Below the pieces are notes generated by a model that saw nothing but the letters and a program-made list of their open reading frames with translations, had not been told where the DNA came from and did not search any database. The translations under genes were made by a program, and so were the position numbers. From Deltaproteobacteria bacterium (GTDB lineage: Bacteria > Myxococcota_A > JAADFL01), in the NCBI GenBank assembly GCA_013152945.1, contig JAADFL010000210.1:11707-52905 (forward strand): DNA of 41,199 nucleotides. The letters are read 5' to 3'. Of the stretch, positions 5,848 to 38,341 are shown in pieces (position 1 is the stretch's first letter; each line of letters opens with the position of its first letter).

Positions 5848-6435
5848 ATGTTATCCAAGAATATTTCAAAGGTTCCGGAAAATGTAAAGAATCGCCTGGA
5901 TGCTGCTGCAAGGTCCTTTGGGGCCTATCACAGGGATTTGCAGGCAGCCCTGCAATCCTTGTCAGTAAGGCGCCAGGAACAATTCGAGGCCGGCAAGAAA
6001 AGGGCAGAAGAATTATTGAGCAATGTGGAAGCCCAGGTAATAATCAAGAAGACAAGTGAGTTGTACCTGAAGATACAGGCATTGATCTCGGAGTGGCAGT
6101 CTATGGTGCAGGAGCACTTGACAGGATTAACGGATTTGTTGGGGGTAATATCCGTTTCCAGTAATAACTCTCCTCCGGAACCATTGAAGCCGAAGCCGTC
6201 TTCAAAGAGCAGGAGTGTCAATCGGGCCGCATCCAAAAGAAAGAAGAAGTCGGTAAAAACAGCGAAAAAAGGCGGCACAAGCGTTGCCAAGAAAAAGGCG
6301 GCAAGGAAATCGGCAAAGGCCGTGAGAGTAAAGGCTTCAGCCGGGACGAAGTCTTCGGCCAGGGAAGTGAAGGCCGGGAAAACCAGGAAAACAGGCAATC
6401 GAAAAACAGTCAAAAGACAGGCTGCCAAAAAATAA
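5848..6435 (+). CDS. Phasin-like protein with histone-H1-like Lys/Ala-rich tail
   Basis: The first ~110 of 195 residues form amphipathic helices (for example FGAYHRDLQAALQSLSVRRQ and KKRAEELLSNVEAQ) with the layout of phasins, which coat polyhydroxyalkanoate granules. Residues ~110-195 are almost entirely Lys, Arg, Ala, Ser, Thr and Pro, including AKKK/KRKKK clusters, like the C-terminus of histone H1 or the tail of PhaF. In PhaF such a tail binds DNA and helps distribute granules at division. The start has an excellent site (GGCGGAGGT, about eight bases upstream). A second phasin-like gene follows. Family membership rests on pattern and neighbour, not on a strict motif. A general nucleoid-associated protein is the alternative. 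Confidence 0.65.
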   Translation: MLSKNISKVPENVKNRLDAAARSFGAYHRDLQAALQSLSVRRQEQFEAGKKRAEELLSNVEAQVIIKKTSELYLKIQALISEWQSMVQEHLTGLTDLLGVISVSSNNSPPEPLKPKPSSKSRSVNRAASKRKKKSVKTAKKGGTSVAKKKAARKSAKAVRVKASAGTKSSAREVKAGKTRKTGNRKTVKRQAAKK

Positions 6436-6467
6436 AGTCTTTGAATCTGAACCCGGCTTTTCGTGAT

Positions 6468-6487
6468 GGCGGTCTCTTGAGAACGCC
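6468..6487. other. Intergenic hairpin between the two phasin-like genes
   Basis: GGCGGTCTC (6468-6476) and GAGAACGCC (6479-6487) pair as 4+4 base pairs around one mismatch, with a two-base gap that would open into a small loop. It lies 33 bases after the first phasin-like gene and about 75 bases before the next. There is no T-tract, so it may be an RNA-processing or stability element rather than a terminator. Confidence 0.3.
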
Positions 6488-6563
6488 GGAGCATGAACCA
6501 TGGCTGAAAGTGAGATATCAGTGGATTGCAGCGATTTTTTAAAAAGCAGATGGAGGTGCGCGT

Positions 6564-6983
6564 ATGGAAAAAATAATAAATGACAGGGAAACAAGCGACT
6601 CGAAAACAATTCCTAAAGGAAGCAGTAGGCAGCAATTGCCTTTCCAGGCAAAAGTAGCCGAGATATGGAGGAGTACAGTTGACAATTTTGGGCCGAAAGC
6701 CAGGCAGGCTTCTTATGGGGTGAACAAATTGATACAACGATTGGATGTCGGGCAGTCAGGAGCGCTTAAAGCGGTCGAAGAATTCTCGCAAAAGATAATA
6801 AGAGATGGAGAACAGGTCGAGCGAAGAATCCAGAACGGGGTTCGGACGACCATGACCCGTTTCAAGATCGTGGCATCGGATGAAATGCATGAATTGAGCA
6901 GGAGGGTGGACGTGCTCGGCACAAGGCTCGGCCGCCGGTTGCGCAAGAATTCAAAAAGAGATAAAGAGGTACAGGAGCATTGA
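6564..6983 (+). CDS. PhaF/PhaI-type granule-associated protein (phasin-like)
   Basis: This is a 139-aa basic helical protein. The central part (SQKIIRDGEQVERRI) and the C-terminal heptad segment (ELSRRVDVLGTRLGRRL) match the pattern of poly(hydroxyalkanoate) granule-associated proteins: an amphipathic granule-binding helix with a DGE motif, then a short leucine-zipper-like coiled coil beginning near DEMHELSRRVD. It ends in a short basic tail. GGAGG lies about eight bases before the ATG. It follows the other phasin-like gene by 128 bases in the same direction. No PHA synthase or depolymerase is in the window, so a role in PHA storage is inferred. Confidence 0.65.
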   Translation: MEKIINDRETSDSKTIPKGSSRQQLPFQAKVAEIWRSTVDNFGPKARQASYGVNKLIQRLDVGQSGALKAVEEFSQKIIRDGEQVERRIQNGVRTTMTRFKIVASDEMHELSRRVDVLGTRLGRRLRKNSKRDKEVQEH

Positions 6984-7268: not shown

Positions 7269-7454
7269 ATGGGAAAGAAAAAATTTTTCGAAAACCTTAA
7301 CGTCGACAAGCGCTTGATAGAACGCAACCTGGTGAGAGGCAAGCTCTCAAAAGAAGCTCTTGAAGATTATCTCCAAAGATTGAAGAATGTTGCAGACAAG
7401 GCGGTACCATTGTTTGCAGAAGAAAGCGAACAGGATCAGCAAGGTAAGGAATAG
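7269..7454 (+). CDS. Small conserved-looking protein, function unknown (61 aa)
   Basis: I chose the ATG at 7269 because GGAGG sits eight bases upstream; an upstream in-frame ATG at 7224 lacks a site and lies only about 13 bases after the predicted transcript start. The protein is charged and helical, with the segment DKRLIERNLVRGKLSKEAL followed by a predicted helix (EDYLQRLKNVADKAVPLF) and an acidic C-terminus. No TM or Cys is present. It heads an operon with the DUF1844 protein and the HtrA-like protein. I do not recognise a family with certainty. Confidence 0.75.
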   Translation: MGKKKFFENLNVDKRLIERNLVRGKLSKEALEDYLQRLKNVADKAVPLFAEESEQDQQGKE

Positions 7455-7480: not shown

Positions 7481-8074
7481 ATGAAGGACGAGGGGGAAAA
7501 CGGTCAATCTTTTGGATTCAGGGTCGTGGACAAGCGACGCCTTGATGAAAAGGGTGATGACCGTGGAAATGATTCAGGCAGGTCTGATGAAAGCACACCC
7601 AAAATTATCGCAGATGTTGATAAGGCCGGTGACAGTGAAAGAACCGCAGATTTAGATTTTTCTTCGGTTATAAAATCTTTTCTTTTTACCGGCCTTACAC
7701 AGGCCGGGGTAATTGATCCAGGCACGGATCATAACATGCTGGATCCAAAAGGCGCCATGCAGACATTGGACATCTTGTTGCTCTTGGAGCAAAAAACCAG
7801 AGGCAATCTTGAAGACAAGGAGTCAAATGAACTGAAGGAGGCGGTGGAGGAATTGACGAGGGCCTTGGCCCTTCGGAATATCCGGGCTGCTGTTCAAGAT
7901 AGTATCAAGACCGGAGATGCCGGCGGGGCCCGGGACGGAATAGAGAAGTTGTCCGCTCTGATTCAAAAGGTCAAAGACCTGTGTCCGGGTAAAACGATGG
8001 ATGAATTAAAGGCGGTCGAGACGGAACTCAAACTTTCTTTTGTCATCGAACTGACCAACAAAGGCGTGCAGTGA
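7481..8074 (+). CDS. DUF1844 domain protein with extra helical C-terminus
   Basis: This 197-aa protein begins with a charged, Asp/Glu/Lys-rich segment containing FRVVDKRRLDEKGDD, a pattern typical of DUF1844 proteins. The DUF1844 core spans about residues 60-130: SVIKSFLFTGLTQAGVIDPG, then DPKGAMQTLDILLLLEQKTR and GNLEDKESNELKEAVEEL. The family is widespread and uncharacterised. The usual protein ends near here, but this one carries about 65 more helical residues with no family I know. GGAGG precedes the ATG. Its stop overlaps the GTG start of the next gene (GTGA), implying translational coupling and perhaps a shared function. Confidence 0.88.
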   Translation: MKDEGENGQSFGFRVVDKRRLDEKGDDRGNDSGRSDESTPKIIADVDKAGDSERTADLDFSSVIKSFLFTGLTQAGVIDPGTDHNMLDPKGAMQTLDILLLLEQKTRGNLEDKESNELKEAVEELTRALALRNIRAAVQDSIKTGDAGGARDGIEKLSALIQKVKDLCPGKTMDELKAVETELKLSFVIELTNKGVQ

Positions 8075-9168
8075 AAAAAACAGGCTTCTTCCTTGTTCCA
8101 GTGGCTTGCTTTGTTTTCTTTGCAGGCTGTCAGATAAGAACACCAGGCCGGCCGAAGCCGTTATACCCTTTGGTTGAAGAAGAACCACCGGCTGTGACTT
8201 CATCGAGTTCGGATCAAAAATGTGAGCTTTGTGATTTGTATGATAGAGTTGCCCCGGTGGTTGTCGCAATCTTTGGGACACCGCTCATAGGGCCGGATGA
8301 AACTTCGTCTTTGAATCGCGGCAAGGGGACACAGCAGGGCTCATTACCAAATTCCAGGCTGGAAAAGTGTATTGGCAGTGGCGTTGTCATTGATGAATCA
8401 GGTTTGGTATTAACCAGTAACGACATAGTGAAAAAGGCCGGCAGACTGACGGTAAAATTGTTTGACGGCAGGAAAGCGCCTGTCACCCGGTTGGGCTGGG
8501 ATCCTGATCTCGACGTGGCATTGTTGCGAATAGAGGAATCAGGATATTTCCAGGCAGCCGGGCTTGGGGATGCCAGTTCACTGAGAGTGGGACAGACAGT
8601 GGCGGTTATCAGCAATCCGGCGGGTTTGGAGCATGCTTTCAAGGTCGGCATGATATGCGGCTTGAACAGGTATGCAGGTGTTGCAGGGATTCCCGGTTTG
8701 CATGCTTTTGTGCCATATATACAAACCGATGCAATGTTGGACAAGGGGAGTCTTGGCAGTCCGTTGTTCGATGCCGACGGCAAGGTTGTGGGTATCGGCT
8801 GCAAGGTACATACGGTAATTCACGGTATGGGCTTTGCTGTTCCCATCGATCTCGTGAACGAATTATTGCCGAAACTGAAAAAGGGCTGGAAAGGTCGTCC
8901 CTGGCTTGGAGTGGAGTTGCTTCCTCCCCTTGATGCAGGTGATGAACTGGGACCGGTTGTCAGCAAATTAGTGCCCGGCGGCCCCATGGACTCTGCGGGA
9001 ATCATGGCTGGTGACAGAATCATGGAGTTTGCTGGTTATGCAGTCGCCGATAGGGAAAGGTTGAAACAAATTCTCGAGAATGCCGAGCCTGGCAAGCCGG
9101 TTAGAGTAAAAATTCGTCGCGACCAAAAAGAGTTGGAGCTGTCGGTTACCCCGGCTATAAGGCCTTGA
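8071..9168 (+). CDS. HtrA/DegP-like PDZ lipoprotein, catalytically degenerate (pseudoprotease)
   Basis: This 365-aa protein has a lipoprotein signal (FFAGC, Cys20; Gln at +2 suggests outer-membrane sorting). A chymotrypsin-fold HtrA domain (about 52-270) and one PDZ domain (about 278-362, beginning PWLGVEL) follow. The fold landmarks are kept: GSGVVID, the VALLRI strand and the PLFDADGKVVGI strand. Two of three catalytic residues are lost. The motif normally reading TNNHVV is TSNDIV (Asp118 instead of His), and the GNSGGP motif is GSLGSP (Leu228 instead of Ser). Asp148 remains. It therefore should not cleave peptides by the usual mechanism and is more likely a chaperone, scaffold or sensor. 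Cys51 and Cys54 form an unusual CxxC before the domain. The GTG start overlaps the DUF1844 stop codon. Confidence 0.9.
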   Translation: MKKTGFFLVPVACFVFFAGCQIRTPGRPKPLYPLVEEEPPAVTSSSSDQKCELCDLYDRVAPVVVAIFGTPLIGPDETSSLNRGKGTQQGSLPNSRLEKCIGSGVVIDESGLVLTSNDIVKKAGRLTVKLFDGRKAPVTRLGWDPDLDVALLRIEESGYFQAAGLGDASSLRVGQTVAVISNPAGLEHAFKVGMICGLNRYAGVAGIPGLHAFVPYIQTDAMLDKGSLGSPLFDADGKVVGIGCKVHTVIHGMGFAVPIDLVNELLPKLKKGWKGRPWLGVELLPPLDAGDELGPVVSKLVPGGPMDSAGIMAGDRIMEFAGYAVADRERLKQILENAEPGKPVRVKIRRDQKELELSVTPAIRP

Positions 9169-11610: not shown

Positions 11611-11745
11611 AAATTCCCTAAAAATCAATTAACACATCTCATAAATTAATGCATACTGAAAAAGAAATGAAAAATGACGGACCAAAGATTTGCTTGCTGC
11701 AACGAGAGTTGTGACCGGAAGGCTGTCAAAAGTCGGAGGATTGAC

Positions 11746-14550
11746 ATGGGAGTGCTAAAGGGACTCGGCTTCAGCTTCGACGAGACTATGTCGGGGTACC
11801 TTTCGAGAGATATCGAAGATTTCAAGTCTGGTTACGAAAAGGGAAAGGCCTCAAGGTCTTCCATAAGTTTTTCCGTTCATGTCGAGATAGACGACATGGA
11901 GAAATTCATGAATACATGGGACCACACGGCTGCCTTGTCCGGCACGGTGAACTTCGAGCCTCTGGGCGGCGAGCTTCCGATAGATGACGGATGGTTCAAC
12001 CTGTTCAGCCTGGCACCCGACGATGAAGGACGCAGGATGATATATGCTTTCAGGTTCACGGGCTCTGACGGCAAGAAATATTTCTTTCACGGTCACAAGG
12101 AAATCCGTGACGATCAGGGAAAAGTCGATGTGATCGAAGACATGACCAACTTGTTTACCAGGATTTACAGGGGGCCAAGCGAACATGCCGATATCTATGG
12201 GGCCGGAGTGCTCAATTTTGCACTCGGGGATGCGCCGGATCTTATAGGTTCAATGAAAGTCCTGCATGCAGACAAGTGGTGGAAGAAGGCAGCCGGGTTC
12301 GTGGCCTTCACATCTTTTGCCTGGGGCTCATTGAGGAACGAATACCTGAAGGAGGAGAGGTTTTTATACAACACGGCGTACCAAAACCTGGTATTGAAAG
12401 GTGCACTTCGAAACGAAGCAGGCGAGCAGACCCCTTTTTTCCTGGTTTCCGGCGTGCACGATCAGGGCTTTCCATGGGGAGACAGCGAGTGTTTCTGGGA
12501 TATCTTGCTGCTCATCGGCGACAGTAACACCGGTTTTTCGAAATACGCTGTAACGGCCCGGATGCTTGCAGGCCTGGAACTGGACGTTCACGACGGCTTT
12601 TTAAGATATGAAGGCCCTATTTTCAAACTCGGGGACAATGGGAAGAGTTCTTTTTCAGACATGAGAAGAAAAAGAGGCGTTCATGATGCTCATGCATTAA
12701 TCGAGTTGTCGTTCGATTCGTTCGAATTCAGCGAAATAAGCCTGCCGTTTTTCAAGGAAAGGTCGGCGTTGAGCCTTATTCCCGGCTCCCTGAAAAAGGA
12801 TTTTGAAGAAATATTTCCATCGTACAGCAGCCTCGGCATGAACATCACGCCGTACAGCATCGACAATGCACGCGGTAAAATCAGTCTCACTATTGAAAAT
12901 AAAGGGAAGGCCAAATCATTCCATGTTGTTGAAGGTGCTGCAGGAGAGGGTGAAAGCTCCAGGATGAAAAACATAAAGGAGCCGACGCTTCTCTATGGTT
13001 ATATATGCCGCATATCTTCCGGAAACGAAGAAAAGAGAGTTCAGATACACACGAATGCACTGCGGGATGACCGGCAGCATTGGGCAAAGGACAGGTTGGA
13101 CAAGTACACCGGCATCCTGGCGTCCAGGTTTGCATCATTGGAGTTTTCCATCAGGAACAAAAAGATGGAAATTGTAGAGTTGGACGGCTGCGAGGTTCGA
13201 AGGCGACTGCGGGCCGGGCAAAGAGGCAGGGACGTTGTGTCCGCCTTCAGTTCGATGGATTCGAATTTGCTGGTTCCTGAAGGAGAACCTCTCATCGAAA
13301 TCAGGAATGACAATTACCCCACGGCTGTTTTCATCAGGAGGATCATAGGGGTAAGAGACGCCAGCGGCCGGACGGAACCAGCTTTGGAAGAGGCCATGGA
13401 TACGATGAGGCTGGAGGCTGAAAACTCGGACAAAGAGGTTGTGGTGGCTTGTTTCAAGGGGCCTGAAAAGGAAGTTCTGTTGGACAGGGTCCTGGACGAA
13501 ACCGGCTTCGATCGTATCGTACGTGACAGGATGGATAAGTCAGGTAAACCCTTGGAAGATTTCAAGGCGGTCATCAAGGCGAACTTCATGTTTTCATACA
13601 ACAAGGAGGATCCGACCAGTTACACAGATCCTGTGCTCATAGCCAGGCTTGCAAGGCGATTGAAGAAGTTGGGTGTTGAGGAAATACTACTGGTCGAGTC
13701 TCACAGCACATATGGCCAGTATTTCCTCAATAGGGATGTAAAATCCGTAGCTGAATATCTCGGGTACGACATGACAGGGGAATTGTACAAGATTGTAGAC
13801 CTTACACTCGATGCTGAAAACGCCGAAAAGGTCTACCTTGGGCCCGTGCTCAAGGATCACCCGGTTCCCCCGGCCTGGCGCGATGCCGACATGAGAATAT
13901 CCTTTGCGAAAAACAAGACCCATGCATATGCCTATTACACCCTTACCATCAAGAATGTTTACGGTGCATTACCCTTGGCCAACAAGTTCAAAGAGTACCA
14001 TTGTGAACGAAATATTTACGATGCCACCATGGAGTACATGGCGAAATTTCCAGTACACTTCGGAATCATCGATGCCATCGTGGGAGCGGACGGACCATTC
14101 GGGGTTTTCTCTGATATGCGGCCCAACCCGACAATGACTGTTATAGGCGGGTCCGATTTGGTATCGGTTGACTGGATCGGGGCAACAAAAATGGGTCTGG
14201 ACCCCAAGTTGAGTCGTTTCACGAAACTCGCCGTGGAGAAATTCGGTAAACCCACCATTCTTTTCAAAGGTGATCCGTCGTTGTACATGCCATGGCTCAA
14301 TGTGCCCGAGGCCCTGACTCTGTTCACAAACGACATCCTGGACAAGGATTATTTCTTTGGAAACCTTATGTACGCATCTGCGGCCCATATGGATGAAACC
14401 GCGTTTCCTCCGAGAAGGATGTCCTTACTGATCAGGTGCTTGAGGGTGATGACCATACCCTTGAGAAAATCCTTCTTCATCTGGACCGGGGAAAAGCCCG
14501 TGTGGTACAATAGATTGATAAATTGGTTCCTTTATAAACTGGGGTACTGA
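11746..14550 (+). CDS. Large DUF362 fusion protein with cholesterol-oxidase/GMC-associated N-terminal domain
   Basis: The ATG at 11746 has GGAGG six bases upstream, giving 934 aa. Residues ~1-180 resemble the domain accompanying some bacterial GMC/cholesterol oxidases: GLGFSFDETMSGYLSRD, ALSGTVNFEPLGGEL, GWFNLFSL, KKYFFHGHKEIRDD and MTNLFTRIYRG follow the order I know there. Residues ~200-500 are a second beta-rich region without a clear family. From ~508 onward is a DUF362-type domain (VIKANFMFS, ISFAKNKTHAYAYYTLTIKN, VYGALP, IVGADGPFGVFSDMRPNPT, VSVDWIGATKMGLDP). DUF362 is often linked to iron-sulfur proteins, but no ferredoxin Cys cluster is present. There is no FAD-binding GxGxxG oxidase domain, no signal peptide and no convincing TM helix. 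It heads the histidine-kinase cluster. Enzymatic role unknown. Confidence 0.8.
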   Translation: MGVLKGLGFSFDETMSGYLSRDIEDFKSGYEKGKASRSSISFSVHVEIDDMEKFMNTWDHTAALSGTVNFEPLGGELPIDDGWFNLFSLAPDDEGRRMIYAFRFTGSDGKKYFFHGHKEIRDDQGKVDVIEDMTNLFTRIYRGPSEHADIYGAGVLNFALGDAPDLIGSMKVLHADKWWKKAAGFVAFTSFAWGSLRNEYLKEERFLYNTAYQNLVLKGALRNEAGEQTPFFLVSGVHDQGFPWGDSECFWDILLLIGDSNTGFSKYAVTARMLAGLELDVHDGFLRYEGPIFKLGDNGKSSFSDMRRKRGVHDAHALIELSFDSFEFSEISLPFFKERSALSLIPGSLKKDFEEIFPSYSSLGMNITPYSIDNARGKISLTIENKGKAKSFHVVEGAAGEGESSRMKNIKEPTLLYGYICRISSGNEEKRVQIHTNALRDDRQHWAKDRLDKYTGILASRFASLEFSIRNKKMEIVELDGCEVRRRLRAGQRGRDVVSAFSSMDSNLLVPEGEPLIEIRNDNYPTAVFIRRIIGVRDASGRTEPALEEAMDTMRLEAENSDKEVVVACFKGPEKEVLLDRVLDETGFDRIVRDRMDKSGKPLEDFKAVIKANFMFSYNKEDPTSYTDPVLIARLARRLKKLGVEEILLVESHSTYGQYFLNRDVKSVAEYLGYDMTGELYKIVDLTLDAENAEKVYLGPVLKDHPVPPAWRDADMRISFAKNKTHAYAYYTLTIKNVYGALPLANKFKEYHCERNIYDATMEYMAKFPVHFGIIDAIVGADGPFGVFSDMRPNPTMTVIGGSDLVSVDWIGATKMGLDPKLSRFTKLAVEKFGKPTILFKGDPSLYMPWLNVPEALTLFTNDILDKDYFFGNLMYASAAHMDETAFPPRRMSLLIRCLRVMTIPLRKSFFIWTGEKPVWYNRLINWFLYKLGY

Positions 14551-22007: not shown

Positions 22008-23132
22008 ATGGCACAAAGGTTGCTTAAGAAAAAAATGGAGGAAATCGAAGAAGTGTTAAATACGTACCTGCAAAAATATTTTTGGACTTTCCAGCTCGTG
22101 GTTGTCGGTGTGTGCGCGTATTTGTCTGCCTCGATTCTGAATAACTTCGTGGCAGCATCCATTGACCCGTACAAGGTTGAAAAATCTTTTTCAAAATCAG
22201 CGAGGAATGTCTTTGGAATAAAATCGAGAGGGGAGAAACCCGTATTCGAGAAGAATCCCTTTTGCGATCCTTCGGATCCGTCCTGTGTTCCGCCAGGGCC
22301 CTTGAATAGTACCTCACCGGTTACAGTATCCCCGGCGGAAGTGGATCAACAAGAGACTGATGCGCGAGAGGCTGTTGGCTCTTGCCCTCAAAGGAGCAAG
22401 CTTTACGAATTCGCCCGTAAGATGCTTGAATACCAGGCCCGTAACAAATTGACGGCAAACGAGAATCAGGACCTGGATAACCGGCCCGAGCCTCCGCATC
22501 TTGCCGGGGTTGAGCCTTCATCACTGAAAGTCAAATTACTTGCAACCGTGGTGGCTTCTTCACCCGAGCTGTCCCTTGCCACTTTCGAGGAAAATAATGA
22601 AGTAAAGTTCTACCGCGGACATGACGATGACCTGCTCATGGGCGAGGCCAGGGTGGAGGAAATCCTGCGGCAATTCGTTTTCGTGGTCAGGGGCGGTAAT
22701 TGCGAATACATCGCCTTGAGCGGGGAAAAGGCAGGCAGAGCGCGTACAGTAGGCTTTGCAGCCAACAGGAACAGAAATACAGCCTATGGAAAAGGAATCA
22801 AGAAGGTCGGGCAGAACGAATACCTGATCGACAGGGATGAAATCGAAAACACGCTGGCAAACCTGAACAAGGTTGCAACCGACGCCAGGATCGTGCCGTC
22901 ATTCAAGAACGGTAGGGGTAATGGGTTCAAACTCTTTTCGATAAGGCCGGGGAGTATCTATTCCAGGATAGGTATCCAAAATGGTGACGTAGTCCAAAAA
23001 ATCAATGGTTATCCCATGGACAGCCCGGAAAAGGCCCTCGAGGTATACCAGAAATTGCAGGACGCCGACCATGTTACAATCGACCTGATGAGGAGAGGCA
23101 GGAATATAACAATGGAGTACACGATAAGATGA
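22008..23132 (+). CDS. gspC: Type II secretion protein GspC (inner-membrane, PDZ)
   Basis: GspC links the inner-membrane platform to the secretin. The 374-aa protein has a cytoplasmic N-terminus, one TM helix (about 26-46), a Pro/Ser-rich linker with paired Cys (FCDPSDPSC), and a homology region (about 170-240) that contacts GspD N0. A C-terminal PDZ domain covers about 305-374 (FKLFSIRPGSIYSRIGIQNG). The start is uncertain: ATG at 22008 has no good site and an internal ATG at 22035 follows AAAGG at a long distance. It is first in the operon, and its stop overlaps the gspD start (ATGA). Confidence 0.93.
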   Translation: MAQRLLKKKMEEIEEVLNTYLQKYFWTFQLVVVGVCAYLSASILNNFVAASIDPYKVEKSFSKSARNVFGIKSRGEKPVFEKNPFCDPSDPSCVPPGPLNSTSPVTVSPAEVDQQETDAREAVGSCPQRSKLYEFARKMLEYQARNKLTANENQDLDNRPEPPHLAGVEPSSLKVKLLATVVASSPELSLATFEENNEVKFYRGHDDDLLMGEARVEEILRQFVFVVRGGNCEYIALSGEKAGRARTVGFAANRNRNTAYGKGIKKVGQNEYLIDRDEIENTLANLNKVATDARIVPSFKNGRGNGFKLFSIRPGSIYSRIGIQNGDVVQKINGYPMDSPEKALEVYQKLQDADHVTIDLMRRGRNITMEYTIR

Positions 23133-25717
23133 GATGCCTAAAGAAGCTCGTTAAAGCGGTTTGTTGCCTGGGCCTTTCGCTTGTACTGCTGGCAGCGGCC
23201 TCTAATCCGGTTTTGGCTGAAGGCGAGAGTAACAGCAGCAACAAGATAAAGAAGTTGAAGAACGGCAGGAGACCTGTAATAAGGTCGAGGCTCAATCCTG
23301 TCCGGATTATCCCGAAGTTGCCGGGAAAAATGGGAATCAAACCCAATGCGCAGATATTGACGCATCCTGAGAATCTGGGCAAAGCCATCAGAGCGGCGAC
23401 CCCGAAGCAGGGGTATGGAAGAGACAGTGGACCTGCAAAACCTGTCAAGAGAACCAAGAGGAACTACAAGAAGGCGAGGAACCAAAAGTACAACCTGGAC
23501 TTTGCAAAGGCGGACATAGGCGACGTGATCAAGGTCATCAGCGAAATGATCGGACAGAACTTCATACTAACGGACAAGACCAGGAGTGCTAAAATTACAA
23601 TAATGACGCCAAGACCTGTAAGTGCGCAGGAAGCGTACCAGGCCTTTCTCGCGGCCCTGTCCATGAACAGGCTCGCCGTGGTTCCGTACGGCAACTATTT
23701 GAAGATAGTCGAGAAGAAGGACGCAAGGGGAGATGCAATCAAGATCTATGATTCTCCGGACGATATTCCCCCGGATGACAGGCTGATTACCTATATTCTA
23801 CGGCTTCAATATGCTGACGTGAAAGATATCGAGACTGTTATAAAGCAGATAAAGTCCAGGGAAGGCAATACCGTTGCGTACTTGCCTATGAATACGCTTG
23901 TACTCAACGAGATGGCGCATAACCTGAAAAGAATACTCAAGGTGGTATCGAAGCTGGATATCCCGTCTCCGGGTTCGAGGATACGCATCATGGATATCCA
24001 GTACGCCGATGCATCGGACATAGTGGACACGATAAAGGAATTGTTCGGAGAAAAATCAAAGAGGAACAAGCGCAAGGCCAAGCGCCGTGCAATAACCATC
24101 GCAAGGAATAGAAAAAAAGAAGAGGTCAAAAACGGCACAGCCGCCGTGACAGTGGACACTGTAATGGCCGATGAACGTACCAATAAATTGATAGTGATTT
24201 GCACGGACAGTGCATGGACGAAGGTCAGGCAGCTCATCGACGAACTCGATGTTCCGGTGCCGGGTGACGAGCAAATCCACGTGCACTACCTGGAAAACGC
24301 CGATGCCACGGAGCTTGCCACGGTCTTGTCCAATTTGGCGCAGGGCCGGGTGGGTAGAACAAGGAAGAGAAAGAGGAGGGGTAAAAAATCTCCCAAAGGG
24401 ACGAGCTCGGAGCTATTCGAAGGCGAGGTAAAAATCACTGCGGACAAGGCCACGAATTCGCTGGTCATTGTCGCGTCTTCCAGGGATTATGCCTCGCTCA
24501 GGAAGGTGATAAAGAAACTCGATATCCGCAGGAGGCAGGTTTTTGTTGAGGCCACAATCCTGGAGGTAAGCCTTAAAAAGGACAACAAGGCGGGATTCGC
24601 TTGGAATGCGGGCAAGGTCCTGGGCGTAAGCGGCGAGGACATCCCCTTGTTCTTCGGCACCAACCTCTCCGGACTTTCATCCCTGGCCCTTACCGATCCG
24701 TCCATACTTTCCGGTATTGCCGCAGGATTGAGAGGGCCGGACGTAAAGGGAACAGAGAACTTGATACCCGGCCTTTCCACGCCGCTGCCCTCGTTCGGCG
24801 CCATATTGATAGCGCTGCAGGAGAACAGCAATGTAAATGTGCTCTCGTCTCCCCATATTCTGACCACTGACAATGAGGAGGCATCAATAACGGTCGGCAA
24901 GAACGTGCCTTTTATCATGGGATTTACCGGCTACGGAGGAGCAGGCAGAACAGGCGGATATTATTCGAATCCGGTAGTCTCTATTCAGCGGCAGGATGTG
25001 GCGCTCACGTTGAAACTGACTCCACAGATCAATGAAAGCGACTACGTGCGATTGAAAGTAGAGCAGGAGGTAACCGAGCTTGCAAAGGGCGGTGATGTCA
25101 GGACAGGCCCTATTACGAGCAAGAGAGCGGCAAAGACTACCGTAGTGGTCAAGGATCAACAAACCGTTGTTTTGGGCGGTCTCATGCAGGACAAGGTCAG
25201 TGAAGGTTCGGCCAAGGTTCCGTTCCTGGGAGATATTCCGGTCATCGGTTGGCTGTTCAGGTTCACGGACAAGACAAAGGAAAAGACCAACCTACTCATA
25301 TTCCTGACTCCGTACATTATCAAGGATCCCAGTGATTTCAGGAAGATTTTCAAACGCAAGATGAGAGAGAGAAAGGAATTCATCGAGCGTTTCTACGGTG
25401 AAGCCAAGAATATACATATCGATATCGACTATTCGAGAAAGAAGGGTCCCTTGGCTGATATCGAATCCACTTTGTATCAGGAAAAGAAAGAGGCCCAGGA
25501 GCGCAAGAAGGAAAACGAGAAATTGAAATCAGAGCTGCCTAGAGTCAGAATACTTGGAAATACGAATGATTCAGGGCCTTCATCCAAGGCCGGACCCGGA
25601 GAGGGTGACGAAATCGACGAACAGGCCCCGGCCGAGAACGGCAAACCTCCGGAGAAACGTGAGCCGGAGGATGAGACCGGCCCTGGTGGCGGCGAAGAAC
25701 AAGGCGAAGGAGAATGA
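23129..25717 (+). CDS. gspD: Type II secretion secretin GspD
   Basis: The outer-membrane channel of the T2SS, 862 aa. A signal peptide ends near LAEGE (about residue 32). An N0 domain (starting near YNLDFAKADIGDVI) and N1-N3 modules (each with a [Y/L]xxADAxxxxxVI pattern) precede the secretin core, which has VEATILEV and VLSSPHILTTDNEEASI. It ends with QTVVLGGLMQD and the usual FLTPYII. Unusual are two strongly basic insertions in N2 and N3 (about residues 307-333 and 410-425; RKAKRRA, TRKRKRRGKK) and a C-terminal extension of about 100 residues ending in an acidic Pro/Gly/Glu tail. No S-domain typical of pilotin binding is clear. It is coupled to gspC and gspE by ATGA overlaps. Confidence 0.96.
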   Translation: MRCLKKLVKAVCCLGLSLVLLAAASNPVLAEGESNSSNKIKKLKNGRRPVIRSRLNPVRIIPKLPGKMGIKPNAQILTHPENLGKAIRAATPKQGYGRDSGPAKPVKRTKRNYKKARNQKYNLDFAKADIGDVIKVISEMIGQNFILTDKTRSAKITIMTPRPVSAQEAYQAFLAALSMNRLAVVPYGNYLKIVEKKDARGDAIKIYDSPDDIPPDDRLITYILRLQYADVKDIETVIKQIKSREGNTVAYLPMNTLVLNEMAHNLKRILKVVSKLDIPSPGSRIRIMDIQYADASDIVDTIKELFGEKSKRNKRKAKRRAITIARNRKKEEVKNGTAAVTVDTVMADERTNKLIVICTDSAWTKVRQLIDELDVPVPGDEQIHVHYLENADATELATVLSNLAQGRVGRTRKRKRRGKKSPKGTSSELFEGEVKITADKATNSLVIVASSRDYASLRKVIKKLDIRRRQVFVEATILEVSLKKDNKAGFAWNAGKVLGVSGEDIPLFFGTNLSGLSSLALTDPSILSGIAAGLRGPDVKGTENLIPGLSTPLPSFGAILIALQENSNVNVLSSPHILTTDNEEASITVGKNVPFIMGFTGYGGAGRTGGYYSNPVVSIQRQDVALTLKLTPQINESDYVRLKVEQEVTELAKGGDVRTGPITSKRAAKTTVVVKDQQTVVLGGLMQDKVSEGSAKVPFLGDIPVIGWLFRFTDKTKEKTNLLIFLTPYIIKDPSDFRKIFKRKMRERKEFIERFYGEAKNIHIDIDYSRKKGPLADIESTLYQEKKEAQERKKENEKLKSELPRVRILGNTNDSGPSSKAGPGEGDEIDEQAPAENGKPPEKREPEDETGPGGGEEQGEGE

Positions 25718-27408
25718 TAACAATGCTTCTTGGTGAGATACTTGTCCAAAGAAGCGGCCTTAGTCCTGACAAGCTGGAAGAAGCCCTGGCGCTCCAGAAG
25801 GAAAAGCAGGAGAGAATAGGCAAGATTCTGGTTTCAATGAAAGAGGTAACGGAAGAGGATGTGGCCCAGGCCCTGGCTGAACAATTTGATTTGCCCTATT
25901 ATCATGAATTCGACCTGGACATTCCGTCGGAACTGGTCTCCGGCCTGCCCATAAACTTTTGCAAGAGCCACCTGTTGCTTCCAATAGATGGAAAGCAGGA
26001 CATGGGACCGGTAAAGATTGTGTGTGCCGATCCCCTGGACCTGGCGGCTCTCGACGAGGTGCGGCTGAACTTGGCCAGGACAGTCGAGCTCGTCATATCT
26101 TCACCGGCCCGAATTTTGAGCGCCATAAACCATGTTTATTCCAATGCCGAGCAGATAACGGACGGCCTTGAAGAGGGAGACCTGGAAGATATCAATGACC
26201 AGGGTGAGGTTATCGAGGACCTTTTGGATGCCTCGGACGAAGCGCCGATCATTCGTTTCGTGAACAACATCCTGTTCAGGTCGGTAAAGGAGCGAGCAAG
26301 CGATATTCACTTTGAACCTTTTGAAAAGAATCTGCTCGTGAGATTCAGGATAGATGGAGTGTTGTATGAGGTGGCAAGGCCTCCCAAGGCTGCACAGGCG
26401 AGTATTACTAGTCGTATCAAGATAATGGCCGGCATGAATATCGCCGAGAAGCGTCTGCCGCAGGATGGCAGAATAAGGATAAAAATAGCCGGAAAGGATA
26501 TCGATATCCGTGTGTCTACAGTGCCGATAGCTCACGGTGAAAGTATAGTCATGCGTCTCTTGGACAAGTCCGCCGTATTGCTGGATCTCGAGTCACTCGG
26601 GTTTTCTAAAGACCAGCTTGAAATCACGGACAAGTTGATACACAGGAGTCACGGCATCATCCTGGTCACCGGTCCTACGGGCAGCGGCAAGACCACGACA
26701 CTATATGCTGCTCTTTCCAGGATAAACAAGCCCGAGATCAAGATCATCACCGTGGAAGATCCTGTGGAGTACCAACTGCCCGGAATAGGACAAATACAGG
26801 TCAATTCCAAGATCGGCCTGACCTTTGCGAACGGATTGAGGTCCATAGTCAGGCAGGATCCGGATGTGATACTGGTAGGTGAAATCCGGGACCTGGAAAC
26901 AGCGGAGATAGCGATACAAGCTTCCTTGACAGGCCATCTCGTTTTCAGCACGGTCCATACAAATGATGCGCCGAGCACAGTGACCAGGCTCATAGACATG
27001 GGAGTCGAACCGTTCCTGGTGGCTTCATCTGCCATCGCCATCCAGGCCCAAAGGCTGGTAAGAAGAGTCTGCAAGTATTGCAAGGAACCATACGTACCTG
27101 AAACCTCTGAACTGACGGAATTGGGCATCGATCCGGGTAATTACGACGGCAGGAAATTCTACAGGAAAAAAGGTTGCGATAGATGTATGGGAACCGGGTA
27201 CCTGGGTAGAACGAGCATTGTGGAACTCATGCCGATCGACGATGAAATCAGGACCATGATACTCAAGAACACAATGTCCACCGAGATAAAAAAAACAGCC
27301 AAGAGACGGGGAATGAGGACCTTGCGCGAAGACGGCGCAAACAAGGTCTTCCAGGGAATCACCACTACAGAGGAGGTGCTTCGAGTGACCCAGGAGGATA
27401 GCCTGTAG
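25714..27408 (+). CDS. gspE: Type II secretion ATPase GspE
   Basis: The cytoplasmic hexameric ATPase that drives pseudopilus assembly, 564 aa. The N-terminal domain (about 1-150) contacts GspL. The core shows ASDIHFEPFEKN, Walker A GPTGSGKTT (320-328), the Asp box ITVEDPVEYQLPGIGQIQVN (345-364), Walker B ILVGEIRD (386-393) and the His box STVHTND (412-418). The tetra-Cys zinc site is intact (Cys453, Cys456, Cys488, Cys491). The start overlaps the gspD stop codon; a second ATG nine bases later is an alternative. Confidence 0.97.
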   Translation: MITMLLGEILVQRSGLSPDKLEEALALQKEKQERIGKILVSMKEVTEEDVAQALAEQFDLPYYHEFDLDIPSELVSGLPINFCKSHLLLPIDGKQDMGPVKIVCADPLDLAALDEVRLNLARTVELVISSPARILSAINHVYSNAEQITDGLEEGDLEDINDQGEVIEDLLDASDEAPIIRFVNNILFRSVKERASDIHFEPFEKNLLVRFRIDGVLYEVARPPKAAQASITSRIKIMAGMNIAEKRLPQDGRIRIKIAGKDIDIRVSTVPIAHGESIVMRLLDKSAVLLDLESLGFSKDQLEITDKLIHRSHGIILVTGPTGSGKTTTLYAALSRINKPEIKIITVEDPVEYQLPGIGQIQVNSKIGLTFANGLRSIVRQDPDVILVGEIRDLETAEIAIQASLTGHLVFSTVHTNDAPSTVTRLIDMGVEPFLVASSAIAIQAQRLVRRVCKYCKEPYVPETSELTELGIDPGNYDGRKFYRKKGCDRCMGTGYLGRTSIVELMPIDDEIRTMILKNTMSTEIKKTAKRRGMRTLREDGANKVFQGITTTEEVLRVTQEDSL

Positions 27409-27417
27409 GGAGGCGGT

Positions 27418-28641
27418 ATGCCGATCTTCGAATACAAGGGCGTAAATGCCAAGGGTAAGAATATCGCCGGTATAATTGATGCCGAATCCCCGAGGGTGGC
27501 CAGGACACGTCTGAAACGTGAAGGAATATTTCTTACGAACCTGATCGAAGGCAAGGAGGGTACCGCAGGAGGAAGAAAGGCATTCGATCTAAAGAAATCC
27601 TTTCAGAGGGTGTCCGCACTCGACTTGGCGATAATCACCAGGCAGTTTGCAACACTGGTCAGGGCCGGAATACCTTTGGTGGATTGCTTGACCGCCTTGG
27701 TGGATCAAACCGACAATGAGAAACTCAAGAGAGTCTTGAGCAGGGTAAAGGACAGGGTCAATGAAGGAAGCAGTATGGCCGATGCCCTCAAAAACTTTCC
27801 AAAGGTATTCAATTCCTTGTACATCAACATGATCGCTGCAGGAGAACAGTCGGGCACCTTGGAAATCGTGCTGCAACGATTGGCTGATTTCACCGAGGCC
27901 CAGGTCAAACTTAGGTCCAAGGTCAGGAGCGCCATGCTCTATCCGATCATACTGTCGGTAATAATCGTGATCATACTGGCGGTGCTGTTCACTTTCGTGA
28001 TACCGAAAATAACCAGGGTCTTCGAGGGCGCAAAGATCGTGCTTCCGCTTATCACCAGGATTCTGATAGCCATGGCCGATTTGTTCAGCTCTTACTGGTA
28101 CATGGTCTTGCTCCTAGTAATAATCCTGACCGTTGTATTGCGCGGAATTTTAAAAACCGAGGCAGGCCATGCATTCAAAGATCGAAAGGTACTCGAACTT
28201 CCTGTTTTCGGTCCCTTGATCAGGATGGTCGCGATTTCAAGGTTTTCAAGAACCCTGGCGACATTGCTCAAAAGCGGAGTTCCCCTGCTCGTGTCCATGG
28301 ATATTGTTAGAAACGTCGTTGCCAACCAGACATTGGCCGATGCTATCGATGATGCAAGGGATGCAGTGAGGGAAGGCGAGAGCATAGCAACGACTTTGAA
28401 AAAATCCGGCCAGTTCCCTCCTATCGTATTTCACATGATTTCAACCGGGGAAAAAACAGGACAGCTTGAAGAAATGCTCTCAAATGTAGCAGATACGTAC
28501 GACGAACAGGTTGATGCAAAGCTTTCCGCCCTGACTACTGCGCTTGAACCTTTGATGATCGTAATTATGGGCGGAATCGTCGCTTTTATAGTTTTTTCAG
28601 TCTTGCTGCCGATTATGCAGATGATGGAGCAGGTTAAATGA
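27418..28641 (+). CDS. gspF: Type II secretion inner-membrane platform protein GspF
   Basis: A polytopic platform protein of 407 aa, the usual length. It has two GspF domains (about 70-195 and 275-395). The first contains FATLVRAGIPLVDCL and GEQSGTLEIVLQRLADF; the second repeats these as LATLLKSGVPLL and GEKTGQLEEMLSNVAD. TM helices lie near 170-192, 222-242 and 375-400. The ATG is preceded by GGGAGGCGG, nine bases after the gspE stop. Confidence 0.97.
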   Translation: MPIFEYKGVNAKGKNIAGIIDAESPRVARTRLKREGIFLTNLIEGKEGTAGGRKAFDLKKSFQRVSALDLAIITRQFATLVRAGIPLVDCLTALVDQTDNEKLKRVLSRVKDRVNEGSSMADALKNFPKVFNSLYINMIAAGEQSGTLEIVLQRLADFTEAQVKLRSKVRSAMLYPIILSVIIVIILAVLFTFVIPKITRVFEGAKIVLPLITRILIAMADLFSSYWYMVLLLVIILTVVLRGILKTEAGHAFKDRKVLELPVFGPLIRMVAISRFSRTLATLLKSGVPLLVSMDIVRNVVANQTLADAIDDARDAVREGESIATTLKKSGQFPPIVFHMISTGEKTGQLEEMLSNVADTYDEQVDAKLSALTTALEPLMIVIMGGIVAFIVFSVLLPIMQMMEQVK

Positions 28642-28677
28642 AACCGGAAAAAGACTCTTTGAGAAAAGGAGATTGAC

Positions 28678-29115
28678 ATGAGGCACTTGAGAAAATTGAC
28701 CGCTGTCCTGAGGGCGTACAGACGTACAAACGGTTTTACACTTCTCGAGGTCATGGTGGTCCTGGTCATCTTGGGACTTATAGTTGGCACTGTGTCGGTT
28801 GCTGTTTTCAGCCAACTCGAAAAGGCAAAAAGGAGGGAAGCGGTACTTCAGATACGGGCCATTGAGCAGGCCCTGGACGCATATAGACTGGATAACGGGA
28901 AGTATCCCAGTACAGCAGATGGCCTGGATGCGCTTACTACGAAAAACGATAGCGGCGAGTGTTACCTGAAGGGATGCAAGTTGCCGAAAGACCCATGGGG
29001 AAACGACTATGTATACATCAGTCCAGGCCAGCACGGTGGAGGCTATGATATCGAATCCTATGGATCGGACGGTGCTGACGGCGGTGAAAAGGATATCGAA
29101 TCCTGGAACATGTGA
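28678..29115 (+). CDS. gspG: Major pseudopilin GspG
   Basis: A 145-aa major pseudopilin. The prepilin-peptidase site is TNG|FTLLE, cleaving after Gly19 with Glu at mature position 5. A hydrophobic N-terminal helix (about 20-42) and the GspG C-terminal fold follow: ALDAYRLDNGKYPSTADGLDAL, then DPWGNDYVYISPGQ and the Gly/Asp-rich calcium-binding-type loop near SYGSDGADGG. An AGGAG site precedes the ATG. Processing would need a prepilin peptidase, which is not in this window. Confidence 0.97.
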   Translation: MRHLRKLTAVLRAYRRTNGFTLLEVMVVLVILGLIVGTVSVAVFSQLEKAKRREAVLQIRAIEQALDAYRLDNGKYPSTADGLDALTTKNDSGECYLKGCKLPKDPWGNDYVYISPGQHGGGYDIESYGSDGADGGEKDIESWNM

Positions 29116-29133
29116 GAAAGAGGAAATGGCGAT

Positions 29134-29892
29134 ATGAGAACAGGTGCAGCTCTATTCGATAGAATCGATAGAAAAGGATTCACCTTGTTCGAGGTGAGTG
29201 TAGCACTTCTCATAGTTGCCTTTCTCCTGGGTACAGCCATCATTTCCATAGACAGCTTGTCAGGCGCAGACCTCAAGAATGCAGTGCGGAGGATGATAGG
29301 TACGGTTAAGTCTCTGCGTGACGAAGCCGCGTTGAGATCCGCAACCGTGAGGCTGGTAATGAATCTCGATGATAACACTTATTATGCCGAGTACACCGAC
29401 GAACCTTTCGGACTTTTCCCGGACAAGATGGTTATCGAAGAGGGCTCGGCAGTGGAAAGCGACGAGGAAAAGAGTTATGAGGAAGAGCTTCGTGACTTTG
29501 AAGAGAATCAGGAGTCACAGGGTGAAACCGTCAATATACCCACCGGCGGCATGGGCATATTTGGAAACCTGTTACAGGGCTTGGATCCTGCAAAGGTTGA
29601 TAGGTTGAAGCCCCCTGTGTTCAAACCACTCGAAGGCCTCCTGTCGAAGCCTAAGCGTCTTCCGGGTAATACCTCTTTCAGCGGGTACTGGGTAAATCAC
29701 CAAGATGGGCTGGCCGAGCACGGTGAAGCTTACCTTTATTTTTTTGAAAACGGCATGACGGAAAGCGCCATGATTTACCTGGAAGATGACAGCGGAAGGG
29801 TGTTCAGCCTGCGCGTGCATCCCCTGACCGGAGACGTTACTCCGACTGAAGGCAAGGAGGAATTGCCACAGGAACAGGAAGAAGAAGAATGA
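29134..29892 (+). CDS. gspH: Minor pseudopilin GspH-type, with acidic insertion
   Basis: This is a 252-aa pseudopilin in the gspH position. Cleavage is predicted at RKG|FTLFE after Gly15 with Glu at +5, followed by a hydrophobic helix to about residue 38. The GspH pattern KSLRDEAALRSATVRLVMNL follows. It is longer than a usual GspH (about 150-200 aa). An insertion of about 90 residues after ~105 is very acidic (SDEEKSYEEELRDFEENQES) and then Gly/Pro/Leu-rich. The extreme C-terminus is also Glu-rich. Its stop overlaps the gspI start codon. Confidence 0.88.
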   Translation: MRTGAALFDRIDRKGFTLFEVSVALLIVAFLLGTAIISIDSLSGADLKNAVRRMIGTVKSLRDEAALRSATVRLVMNLDDNTYYAEYTDEPFGLFPDKMVIEEGSAVESDEEKSYEEELRDFEENQESQGETVNIPTGGMGIFGNLLQGLDPAKVDRLKPPVFKPLEGLLSKPKRLPGNTSFSGYWVNHQDGLAEHGEAYLYFFENGMTESAMIYLEDDSGRVFSLRVHPLTGDVTPTEGKEELPQEQEEEE

Positions 29893-30590
29893 GAAGATTG
29901 CGACCGGATACAGGCTTCACCTTGCTGGAGACCATGGTGGCGCTGTTGATACTGGCCATGTCCCTGACGGCATTGGTTGATGTCCAAAGCATGTCGACAT
30001 CAGCAGTGATACGGTCCAAGAATCTTGCGCTGGTCACGGAGCTTGCCAGGGGCAAAATGTACGACTTGATACTGGAGATTAAAAAAAAGGGTTTTAGTGA
30101 ATTCGAGGATACGTTGGAGTGTGATTTCGAACAAGAGGAGCATCCCGAGATTGGATGCTCCGCCACGTTGAGTAAGATCGATATTCCAATTCCAGAGGGA
30201 GGGGATCTTTTCGGGCTGGGCGGTGATATGCAGAATGAGCAAGCCGCAAACCAGGAAAACAGCCCCGTGGGAATGGTTCAGCAGGCTGCAAAGAGCCTGG
30301 TTTCCATGTACAGCTCCATGATTAAGGACATGGTGACTAATGCTGTCAGGCAGTTGACCCTTACTGTGACATGGAAGGACAATGGTATTCAACATTCGTT
30401 CACCGTCACCACCCACCTTATCGATGTCATGCGTGCCGGCGGTACGGGCATGCCGAGTATGCCCAAGATACCCGGGTTCGGGTCAAGGCGTAAACCGGGC
30501 GGTAAGAAGCTGCCTTTCGGTGCAGGCTCAATCCCCCCACTGCCGCTCGGAGCACCAAGGCCGGGAACGAATATAGGGTGGCCAAGATGA
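29889..30590 (+). CDS. gspI: Minor pseudopilin GspI-type
   Basis: This is a 233-aa protein with cleavage site DTG|FTLLE (after Gly9, Glu at +5) and the GspI-like helix TMVALLILAMSLTALVDVQS. In the T2SS, GspI forms the tip complex with J and K. It is longer than the usual ~125 aa: an insertion of about 70 residues in the middle (Gly/Asn/Gln-rich, with several Met) and a Pro/Gly-rich C-terminal tail. The LTLTVTWKD strand typical of GspI is kept. Confidence 0.88.
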   Translation: MRRLRPDTGFTLLETMVALLILAMSLTALVDVQSMSTSAVIRSKNLALVTELARGKMYDLILEIKKKGFSEFEDTLECDFEQEEHPEIGCSATLSKIDIPIPEGGDLFGLGGDMQNEQAANQENSPVGMVQQAAKSLVSMYSSMIKDMVTNAVRQLTLTVTWKDNGIQHSFTVTTHLIDVMRAGGTGMPSMPKIPGFGSRRKPGGKKLPFGAGSIPPLPLGAPRPGTNIGWPR

Positions 30591-31285
30591 CGCTTTTAGC
30601 GAGATTAAGACACCTAAAAAACCATGAGGCGCGCAACCAGCTTGGTTTTTCCCTTCTCGAGGTGGGCCTCGCGGTTTTGATCACCGCTATGATAACAACC
30701 GCCATTTGGATGGTGTTCAAACGGACCTTTACCCTGAGAGAACAAGCTCTGGACATGGCTGCACGTTACAGGTCGGTGCGCACGGCCATGGACATGATGG
30801 CCAGGGATCTGGAAATGGCCTTCATTTCTCTTCGCCAAGGGCCGACGAAATCCACCCAGACCATATTCAAGCAAGAGGATGGCTCACCTTGTGACAAGTT
30901 GACTTTTACCTCTCTCGGCCACTTGAGGCTTGTAAAAGACAGTGCAGAAAGCGATCAGAACGAGCTTTCATATTATTGCGATGATGATCCGGACAACCCG
31001 GGTACCCTGGCCCTTTTCAGGAGAGAGGCTAGAAGGATTGACGAGGATCCGGAAAGAGGCGGGGTGCACTATGTGCTTCTTAGTGATATTTCCAGCCTTG
31101 ATTTCAAGTTTTATGACCAAAAGACCGATGAGTGGGTCGACGAATGGGATTCTACGCAACTCGAGCATGCAATGAAACTACCCACTCTGGTCAGGATCGA
31201 GGTGAAGATTCCAAGTTCGGACAACAGCAAAGACGAGGTTTTCGTCACAAAGACCAGGATAGAACTGAACGAGGTTCTGAGATGA
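30587..31285 (+). CDS. gspJ: Minor pseudopilin GspJ
   Basis: I chose the ATG at 30587, which overlaps the gspI stop as ATGA, over an upstream in-frame GTG at 30578. This gives 232 aa. Cleavage is predicted at QLG|FSLLE (after Gly20, Glu at +5). The hydrophobic helix and GspJ features follow: RSVRTAMDMMARDLEMAF, then beta strands with LTFTSL and VLLSDISSLDFKFYD near the C-terminus. It is a tip component together with GspI and GspK. Confidence 0.93.
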   Translation: MTLLARLRHLKNHEARNQLGFSLLEVGLAVLITAMITTAIWMVFKRTFTLREQALDMAARYRSVRTAMDMMARDLEMAFISLRQGPTKSTQTIFKQEDGSPCDKLTFTSLGHLRLVKDSAESDQNELSYYCDDDPDNPGTLALFRREARRIDEDPERGGVHYVLLSDISSLDFKFYDQKTDEWVDEWDSTQLEHAMKLPTLVRIEVKIPSSDNSKDEVFVTKTRIELNEVLR

Positions 31286-32559
31286 CTTTGTTCCGACATA
31301 GGGCAAACCGCATTGCACTTCATGGCAGGAGTATAGAAAGGAACCTGTCTTCCGCATTCCTGTCCTTGTACAGATTCGTCTTTGTTCGTTCCAGGGCTCA
31401 AAGGGGCGTGGCTCTTCTCTTGGTTGTCACTACCATAGTCATGTTGACCTCCGCGACCATGGAGTTCGCATATGGCTCCAAGGTTGAACTGGATTTGGCG
31501 GGAAATGCCAGGGACAGGGTGAGGGCCGAGTTTCTCGCAAGGTCTGCAATTGAGTTTTCCAGGGTCATAATACACATACAGAAGACCGTGATCGATCGGT
31601 TCAAAAAGCAGCTTCCATTCCCGATTCAACTCTGGAAGATAGTACCCATAGACAGTGATTTGGCTGCGGCTTATTTTTCCTCCATTTCCAGGGGGCAGGA
31701 CCGGGAAGATCAAAGAGGACAAGGAGGACAGGAAATTAAGGAGGAAGATACCGAAGCGGGGCAACTGGATTCTCTTTCCACCGGAATCAAGAGATTCGGC
31801 GACTTCAAGGGGCGTTTTTTTGCGAATGTGGAAGACGAGGATGGAAAGATTAACGTGAACATGGCACAATTTAAAACTCAACAAAAACAATTCAGGGAAC
31901 TCATGCTAATGCTCATGGCGCCTGCAAAATATAATTTTCTGTTCGAGCACCCGGACAAGGATGGAAACTTCACGGACCGGGAAGAACTCATTGCTTCGAT
32001 AGTGGACTGGGTCGATCCCGATGACGAGAGAAGCGGCCCGGAGGGCGGGCACGAAGACTCCAGGTATTCAACACTGGACGATCCTTATGCATCGAAGAAT
32101 GCACCCTTCGATACTTTACAGGAACTTCATATGGTTAGGGGGGTGAACGACGAGTTCATGCACATCTTTGGTAAGAGACTGACTGTTTGGGGCAAGACAA
32201 TCAACGTGTTGACAGCAGACGCCCCTACCATAGCCGCACTATTGCGATTTGGGCTGCCGCATGATGATCCGCTCCAGTCTCCATCCGCTGATTCAAAGGT
32301 CTTGGAGCTGGCATACGAATTCGTGGCACTTCGAAATCAAGAGTTGTTGGTGAATTCGCTGAAAGACTTTGTCGATTTCTTCAAGACGGAAGGTCTGACC
32401 CTCAATCAGGCCAAGATAGCCAGGGTGGCAGGAGTCGACAGCTCGGTCTTCAAAATAAAGGCCGTCGGTGAAGTGGGACGGGCCAGGGTGAGAATAACAG
32501 CGGTAATTGATGCCTCCCAGGTCCCGGGCGGCAGGCTGGTCTACTGGAGGTTGGACTGA
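31282..32559 (+). CDS. gspK: Minor pseudopilin GspK
   Basis: This is a 425-aa protein from the ATG at 31282, which overlaps the gspJ stop as ATGA; a longer open frame upstream is inside gspJ and is rejected. The prepilin site is AQRG|VALLL after residue 42, with the absence of Glu at +5 that marks GspK. The leader of about 42 residues is unusually long. The family motif IVDWVDPDDERSGPEGG is followed by FDTLQELHMVRGV, as in GspK proteins. It caps the pseudopilus. Confidence 0.94.
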   Translation: MTLFRHRANRIALHGRSIERNLSSAFLSLYRFVFVRSRAQRGVALLLVVTTIVMLTSATMEFAYGSKVELDLAGNARDRVRAEFLARSAIEFSRVIIHIQKTVIDRFKKQLPFPIQLWKIVPIDSDLAAAYFSSISRGQDREDQRGQGGQEIKEEDTEAGQLDSLSTGIKRFGDFKGRFFANVEDEDGKINVNMAQFKTQQKQFRELMLMLMAPAKYNFLFEHPDKDGNFTDREELIASIVDWVDPDDERSGPEGGHEDSRYSTLDDPYASKNAPFDTLQELHMVRGVNDEFMHIFGKRLTVWGKTINVLTADAPTIAALLRFGLPHDDPLQSPSADSKVLELAYEFVALRNQELLVNSLKDFVDFFKTEGLTLNQAKIARVAGVDSSVFKIKAVGEVGRARVRITAVIDASQVPGGRLVYWRLD

Positions 32560-38172: not shown

Positions 38173-38341
38173 CAAAACTCCCGGGAGCGTTCCAGGCCCA
38201 AAGACACAATTCAGCTCGAATTTCCCGAATCATTGTATGAACAAACTCGATATCGTTCCCGCCTCCGGATGCGGAAAATATTATTGGCAACGGCTCTGGA
38301 AGATAGTTCGTAAAATTCCATTCAGGCAAAGGCCTCTAAAG

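Follow-up and report, generated by a model that had tools for sequence, protein, structure and literature searches.

The gene at positions 8071-9168 (forward strand) of the window, by which we mean the whole 41,199-nucleotide stretch of DNA that was analysed, is predicted to encode an HtrA-like lipoprotein of 365 amino acids with a Trypsin_2 domain and one PDZ domain, and this protein has very probably lost catalysis. Judged from its sequence it combines homology to HtrA proteins with loss of the catalytic residues and is classified here as a putative HtrA pseudoprotease. We tentatively propose that it is a lipid-anchored protein that no longer cuts but could still bind, and that it would most likely work together with an active DegP protein encoded elsewhere in the same genome (G000:C168, hereafter C168 DegP).

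The open reading frame begins with a GTG start and runs for 365 codons without interruption. A profile search, with the protein itself excluded from the profile, gave HtrA homology at an E-value of 1.5e-63, and Pfam models identified a Trypsin_2 domain (PF13365; 1.3e-27) at residues 102-242 (8374-8796, forward strand) and a single PDZ domain (PDZ_2; 1.8e-12) at 8896-9156 (forward strand). The best NCBI family was TIGR02037 (DegP/DegQ/MucD), with 189.8 bits, which is below its cut-off of 416.2, and the cut-offs of the DegS family (TIGR02038; 120.3 versus 423 bits) and of the MamO equivalog (37 versus 800 bits) were not reached. The signal peptide (8071-8130, forward strand) contains the lipobox FFAG-Cys20, which conforms to the PROSITE-type pattern, and a lipobox is also present in most orthologues of the phylum. 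The CxxC noticed at residues 51-54 (8221-8232, forward strand) in an earlier reading of the DNA from its letters only (hereafter the sequence-only reading) is indeed there, reads CELC, and lies shortly before the protease domain. An AlphaFold2 model of the protein, built from 23 sequences, had a pLDDT of 80.4 and a pTM of 0.72, with most of the degenerate trypsin-like core above 90, and the closest solved folds were those of MucD (Z 29.7), DegS (Z 29.0), and AlgW (Z 29.0) (VIA; Foldseek was also run). The overall rmsd of about 5 Å between the model and the solved folds probably reflects two domains in a variable arrangement. The structural comparison with DegS that had been suggested earlier thus gave an agreeing fold; since the alignment used as input consisted of intact relatives, such a match was expected and is uninformative on activity. 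Sequence and model together point to a protein of the HtrA/DegP type (an S1C homologue), in which a trypsin-like domain with the predicted HtrA fold is followed by a PDZ domain. The earlier claim that fold and PDZ domain were intact stands for the modelled fold, but not for the PDZ domain, in which seven residues are deleted after WLGV and the loop that follows has a length of 13 versus the usual 20.

Active HtrA/DegP peptidases of the S1C family need a His-Asp-Ser triad and the GNSGG motif. The protein at 8071-9168 departs from both, its triad columns reading D-D-L where the aligned relatives have H-D-S, and GSLGS standing in place of GNSGG. Asp118 (GAC; 8422-8424, forward strand) occupies the position of the catalytic His within TSNDIV (residues 115-120), Leu228 (CTT; 8752-8754, forward strand) occupies that of the catalytic Ser within GSLGSP (residues 226-231), and Asp148 within DLDVAL (8512-8514, forward strand) is the retained catalytic Asp, so that codons and alignment agree with the replacements of TNNHVV and GNSGGP reported before. 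The columns of Asp118 and Leu228 hold His and Ser in all rows covering them (36 HtrA open reading frames of the phylum and a DegS fragment), and serine-mechanism proteolysis is taken to be lost because of the established chemistry of the family.

Limiting the losses to His and Ser, as the sequence-only reading did, proved too narrow: both are lost, but 23 of 70 family-conserved positions (defined by at least 85% conservation across 90 aligned relatives) are altered in total, and the 47 positions kept (67%) compare with a median of 97% elsewhere and a next lowest value of 80%, the G001 protein without a recognisable protease domain being set aside. The alterations include Asn116, His118, and Val119, the Ser and Ala of the GIVSA strand, the Ile-Asn-Pro before GNSGG, Asn227, Ser228, and Gly230, and the Asn and Ala of GINTA. 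They affect 13 of 20 catalytic and substrate-loop positions, a set chosen by the analyst from HtrA structural knowledge, versus 10 of 50 other positions (Fisher p 6e-4). The mean identity of the protease domain to the family is 0.36 (others: mean 0.54, minimum 0.42), and the identity of the PDZ domain is ordinary (0.30 versus a mean of 0.34 for the others). Sequencing error as the cause of the changes was ruled out because many positions are altered within an open frame.

The conserved upstream partner of the gene encodes a DUF1844 protein of 197 amino acids (7481-8074, forward strand; Pfam 8.2e-14), the stop of which overlaps the start of the HtrA-like gene in the sequence GTGA (8071-8074). 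At its C-terminus this DUF1844 protein extends about 70 residues past the core, as compared with tails of at most 28 residues in other DUF1844 proteins. Upstream of it lies a small gene (7269-7454, forward strand; 61 amino acids, DKRLIERNLVRGKLS...), for which the NCBIfam search gave no match and similar short sequences were found in 13 other DUF1844 loci (E <= 0.01). Further features of the window are two small genes at 5848-6983, the first with a Lys/Ala-rich tail and the second weakly phasin-like (PF05597, 1.2e-4, under the cut-off), a gene at 11674-14550 for a 958-amino-acid protein with DUF362 (residues 633-837) as its sole Pfam match and no assignment over its N-terminal 600 residues, a type II secretion or pilus-type cluster at 22008-34298 with secretin, T2SSE, T2SSF, and PilM-like genes, in which the gene starting at 22008 has a weak PDZ match at its end, and a single protein at 35821-38175 (reverse strand) in which an adenylate/guanylate cyclase domain comes after a protein kinase domain.

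A DUF1844 gene was found in 339 of the 377 genomes of the phylum. In 66 of the 194 DUF1844 loci examined the next gene downstream, on the same strand, was HtrA-like; 45 of these loci belong to the phylum sample and 21 to named records outside it (largely from Desulfobacterales or Deltaproteobacteria). As loci were picked by family and match rank, these fractions are not natural frequencies. Of the 66 HtrA proteins in this slot 63 retain the catalytic His and Ser motifs, the three exceptions being those of the window and of genomes G001 and G007. Within the phylum most of the slot proteins have one PDZ domain and a lipobox; among the others, two PDZ domains without a lipobox are the rule. With its gene directly after a DUF1844 gene of the same strand, its lipobox, and its single PDZ domain, the protein at 8071-9168 fits the DUF1844-linked HtrA lipoproteins. 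It shares the slot with the DUF1844-linked HtrA proteins of Myxococcota and Desulfobacterota at large, and differs from nearly all of them in the loss of the motifs. As read from these motifs, the DUF1844-then-HtrA slot is normally held by a predicted active protease, and since homologues with intact His and Ser occupy the same slot the loss in the window is lineage-specific. It looks like the conversion, in one lineage, of an enzyme into a putative non-cutting binding protein.

Close homologues with intact His and Ser in otherwise identical operons had been named in the sequence-only reading as evidence that would speak against a pseudoprotease. Intact residues do occur in the same slot (42/45 in the phylum, 21/21 outside), but none of these proteins is close, with identities of at most about 40%, and intact slot homologues elsewhere do not make the protein at 8071-9168 active. 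The open frame and the coupled position that the same reading had held against a pseudogene were both recovered, and the gene is not an obvious pseudogene. The view of an anchored HtrA protein that lacks catalytic residues was likewise borne out by the Cys20 lipobox and the lost His and Ser columns; the chaperone, scaffold, or decoy-sensor role proposed with it is hypothetical.

Scanning the GTDB species genomes with this protein alone returned no confirmed relative, and the matches in the 377 genomes of the phylum at an E-value of 1e-48 were only its own paralogue and two distant proteins of family f7. The genome of the window is the sole member of its class among the genomes compared. It contains two intact DegP genes elsewhere (C168 and C164), of which C168 DegP, a protein of 506 amino acids with two PDZ domains, is encoded on another contig than the HtrA-like gene. 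In the best tree the protein at 8071-9168 was sister to C168 DegP with a support of 91/93, just under the usual threshold, and in the AU test the alternative grouping with one-PDZ DUF1844-linked proteins was not rejected (p 0.37). Among about 100 HtrA proteins only these two have at least two Cys residues just before the protease domain, C168 DegP reading CRAGKCC at about the position equivalent to CELC. The simplest account would be that a gene was duplicated and that the copy now in the DUF1844 slot then lost catalysis. The branch leading to this copy is long (1.37-1.53 versus a family median of 0.19-0.39). The HtrA proteins of family f6 group with the named Polyangiaceae record L214, which makes Myxococcota the probable phylum.

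The other two exceptions, G001 and G007, belong to one family (f2) and are the sole two members of their class among the genomes compared. Directly after DUF1844 both encode a protein with a lipobox and a significant PDZ domain (L058, 1812-2945; L039, reverse strand), in which no protease domain was detectable with an unbiased profile. A degenerate triad in these proteins was considered and rejected, only the PDZ domain being significant with that profile. The two proteins align with 29% identity over 242 residues, and this kind of protein therefore spans two genera. Both genomes retain an intact DegP elsewhere (L014, L022). In the RpoB tree they group with the window genome at 76/92, which is only suggestive of kinship. 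It is conceivable, if rather doubtful, that an anchored HtrA protease in the DUF1844 slot was converted more than once into a functional lipoprotein that binds without cutting, in the window lineage and in the f2 lineage. With an intact DegP elsewhere in each genome, this would give a non-magnetosome pair of active and inactive HtrA proteins.

Duplication of HtrA genes with loss in one copy, and the pairing of active with inactive HtrA proteins, are on record (PMC4794232). MamO is a degenerate HtrA protein with two non-catalytic activities, one of which activates MamE-dependent proteolysis, and magnetosome HtrA pseudoproteases arose independently in three taxa (PMC4794232). With MamO and inactive MamE copies the protein at 8071-9168 shares the derivation from HtrA, a degenerate triad, a fold that is predicted to be kept, an active HtrA relative alongside, and, on the simplest account, an origin after duplication. 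It differs from MamO in lacking both His and Ser, whereas MamO has His and Asp with Thr for Ser, and in being a one-PDZ lipoprotein of a DUF1844 pair, whereas MamO is found in magnetosome islands. DegS and AlgW resemble it in being anchored, in their one PDZ domain, and in being among the nearest PDB folds to the model, but they are active protease stress sensors; the anchor of DegS is a transmembrane helix. From DegP/DegQ/MucD (TIGR02037) it is set apart by the absence of a second PDZ domain and of the triad.

According to the explanation that we favour, the protein would be anchored in the membrane by its lipid, would have kept fold and PDZ domain while losing the ability to cut, and would bind envelope proteins at unfolded or C-terminal segments, leaving them uncut. 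It might then aid C168 DegP, either as an inactive partner subunit or as an activator that presents substrate, as MamO does for MamE. Such a partner role with the active paralogue is at best an even bet. A related but rather less probable explanation is that of a stand-alone membrane-anchored holdase or sensor, which would capture misfolded envelope proteins without cutting them and without the active paralogue. Protease-dead DegP keeps chaperone activity, lipobox and PDZ domain are both kept in the window protein, and the two f2 genomes keep just these two elements in the DUF1844 slot, which suggests that it is binding that counts in them; all of this fits the partner role equally well, however, and the substrate-binding strands beside the active site are altered and the PDZ domain is shortened. 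MamO being the nearest case that has been worked out, we favour a role beside the active paralogue, as its partner or by presenting substrate to it, over the stand-alone holdase.

The long branch, the loss of 23 of 70 conserved positions, and a weak codon signal (codon usage of both this gene and DUF1844 separates the true frame from a shifted frame poorly) would also suit early decay, in which the active paralogue took over and the copy at 8071-9168 is drifting towards a pseudogene. We consider this improbable, given the open frame of 365 codons, the GTGA overlap, the retained lipobox, and a divergence focused in the protease domain with ordinary PDZ identity. Still less probable is the gain of a different activity, such as metal or redox chemistry that would use CELC together with the additional cysteines at 100, 196, and 244. 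Cys196 occupies the position of a family-invariant Ser, Cys244 lies within the strand that reads GINTA elsewhere, and MamO provides a precedent of repurposing for metal binding (PMC4794232), but no motif of a metal or redox family was matched, and Cys residues near the position of CELC also occur in the paralogue, whose triad is intact, so that CELC need not accompany catalytic loss. Continued protease activity through a shifted or alternative nucleophile is highly improbable: Asp148 and the oxyanion-hole Gly226 remain, but Leu replaces the nucleophile, Asp replaces the base, and the substrate strands are altered.

In the literature searched, the bacterial HtrA pseudoproteases all come from magnetosomes. 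Pseudoproteases themselves are known, and what is new here is a putative HtrA pseudoprotease that is a lipoprotein, is paired with DUF1844, and, to judge from the window, does not belong to a magnetosome context. DUF1844, which is uncharacterised and mentioned by one paper in the literature searched, is now tied to HtrA genes, and the gene pair, otherwise conserved with an intact enzyme, offers a natural comparison of cutting and putatively non-cutting forms.
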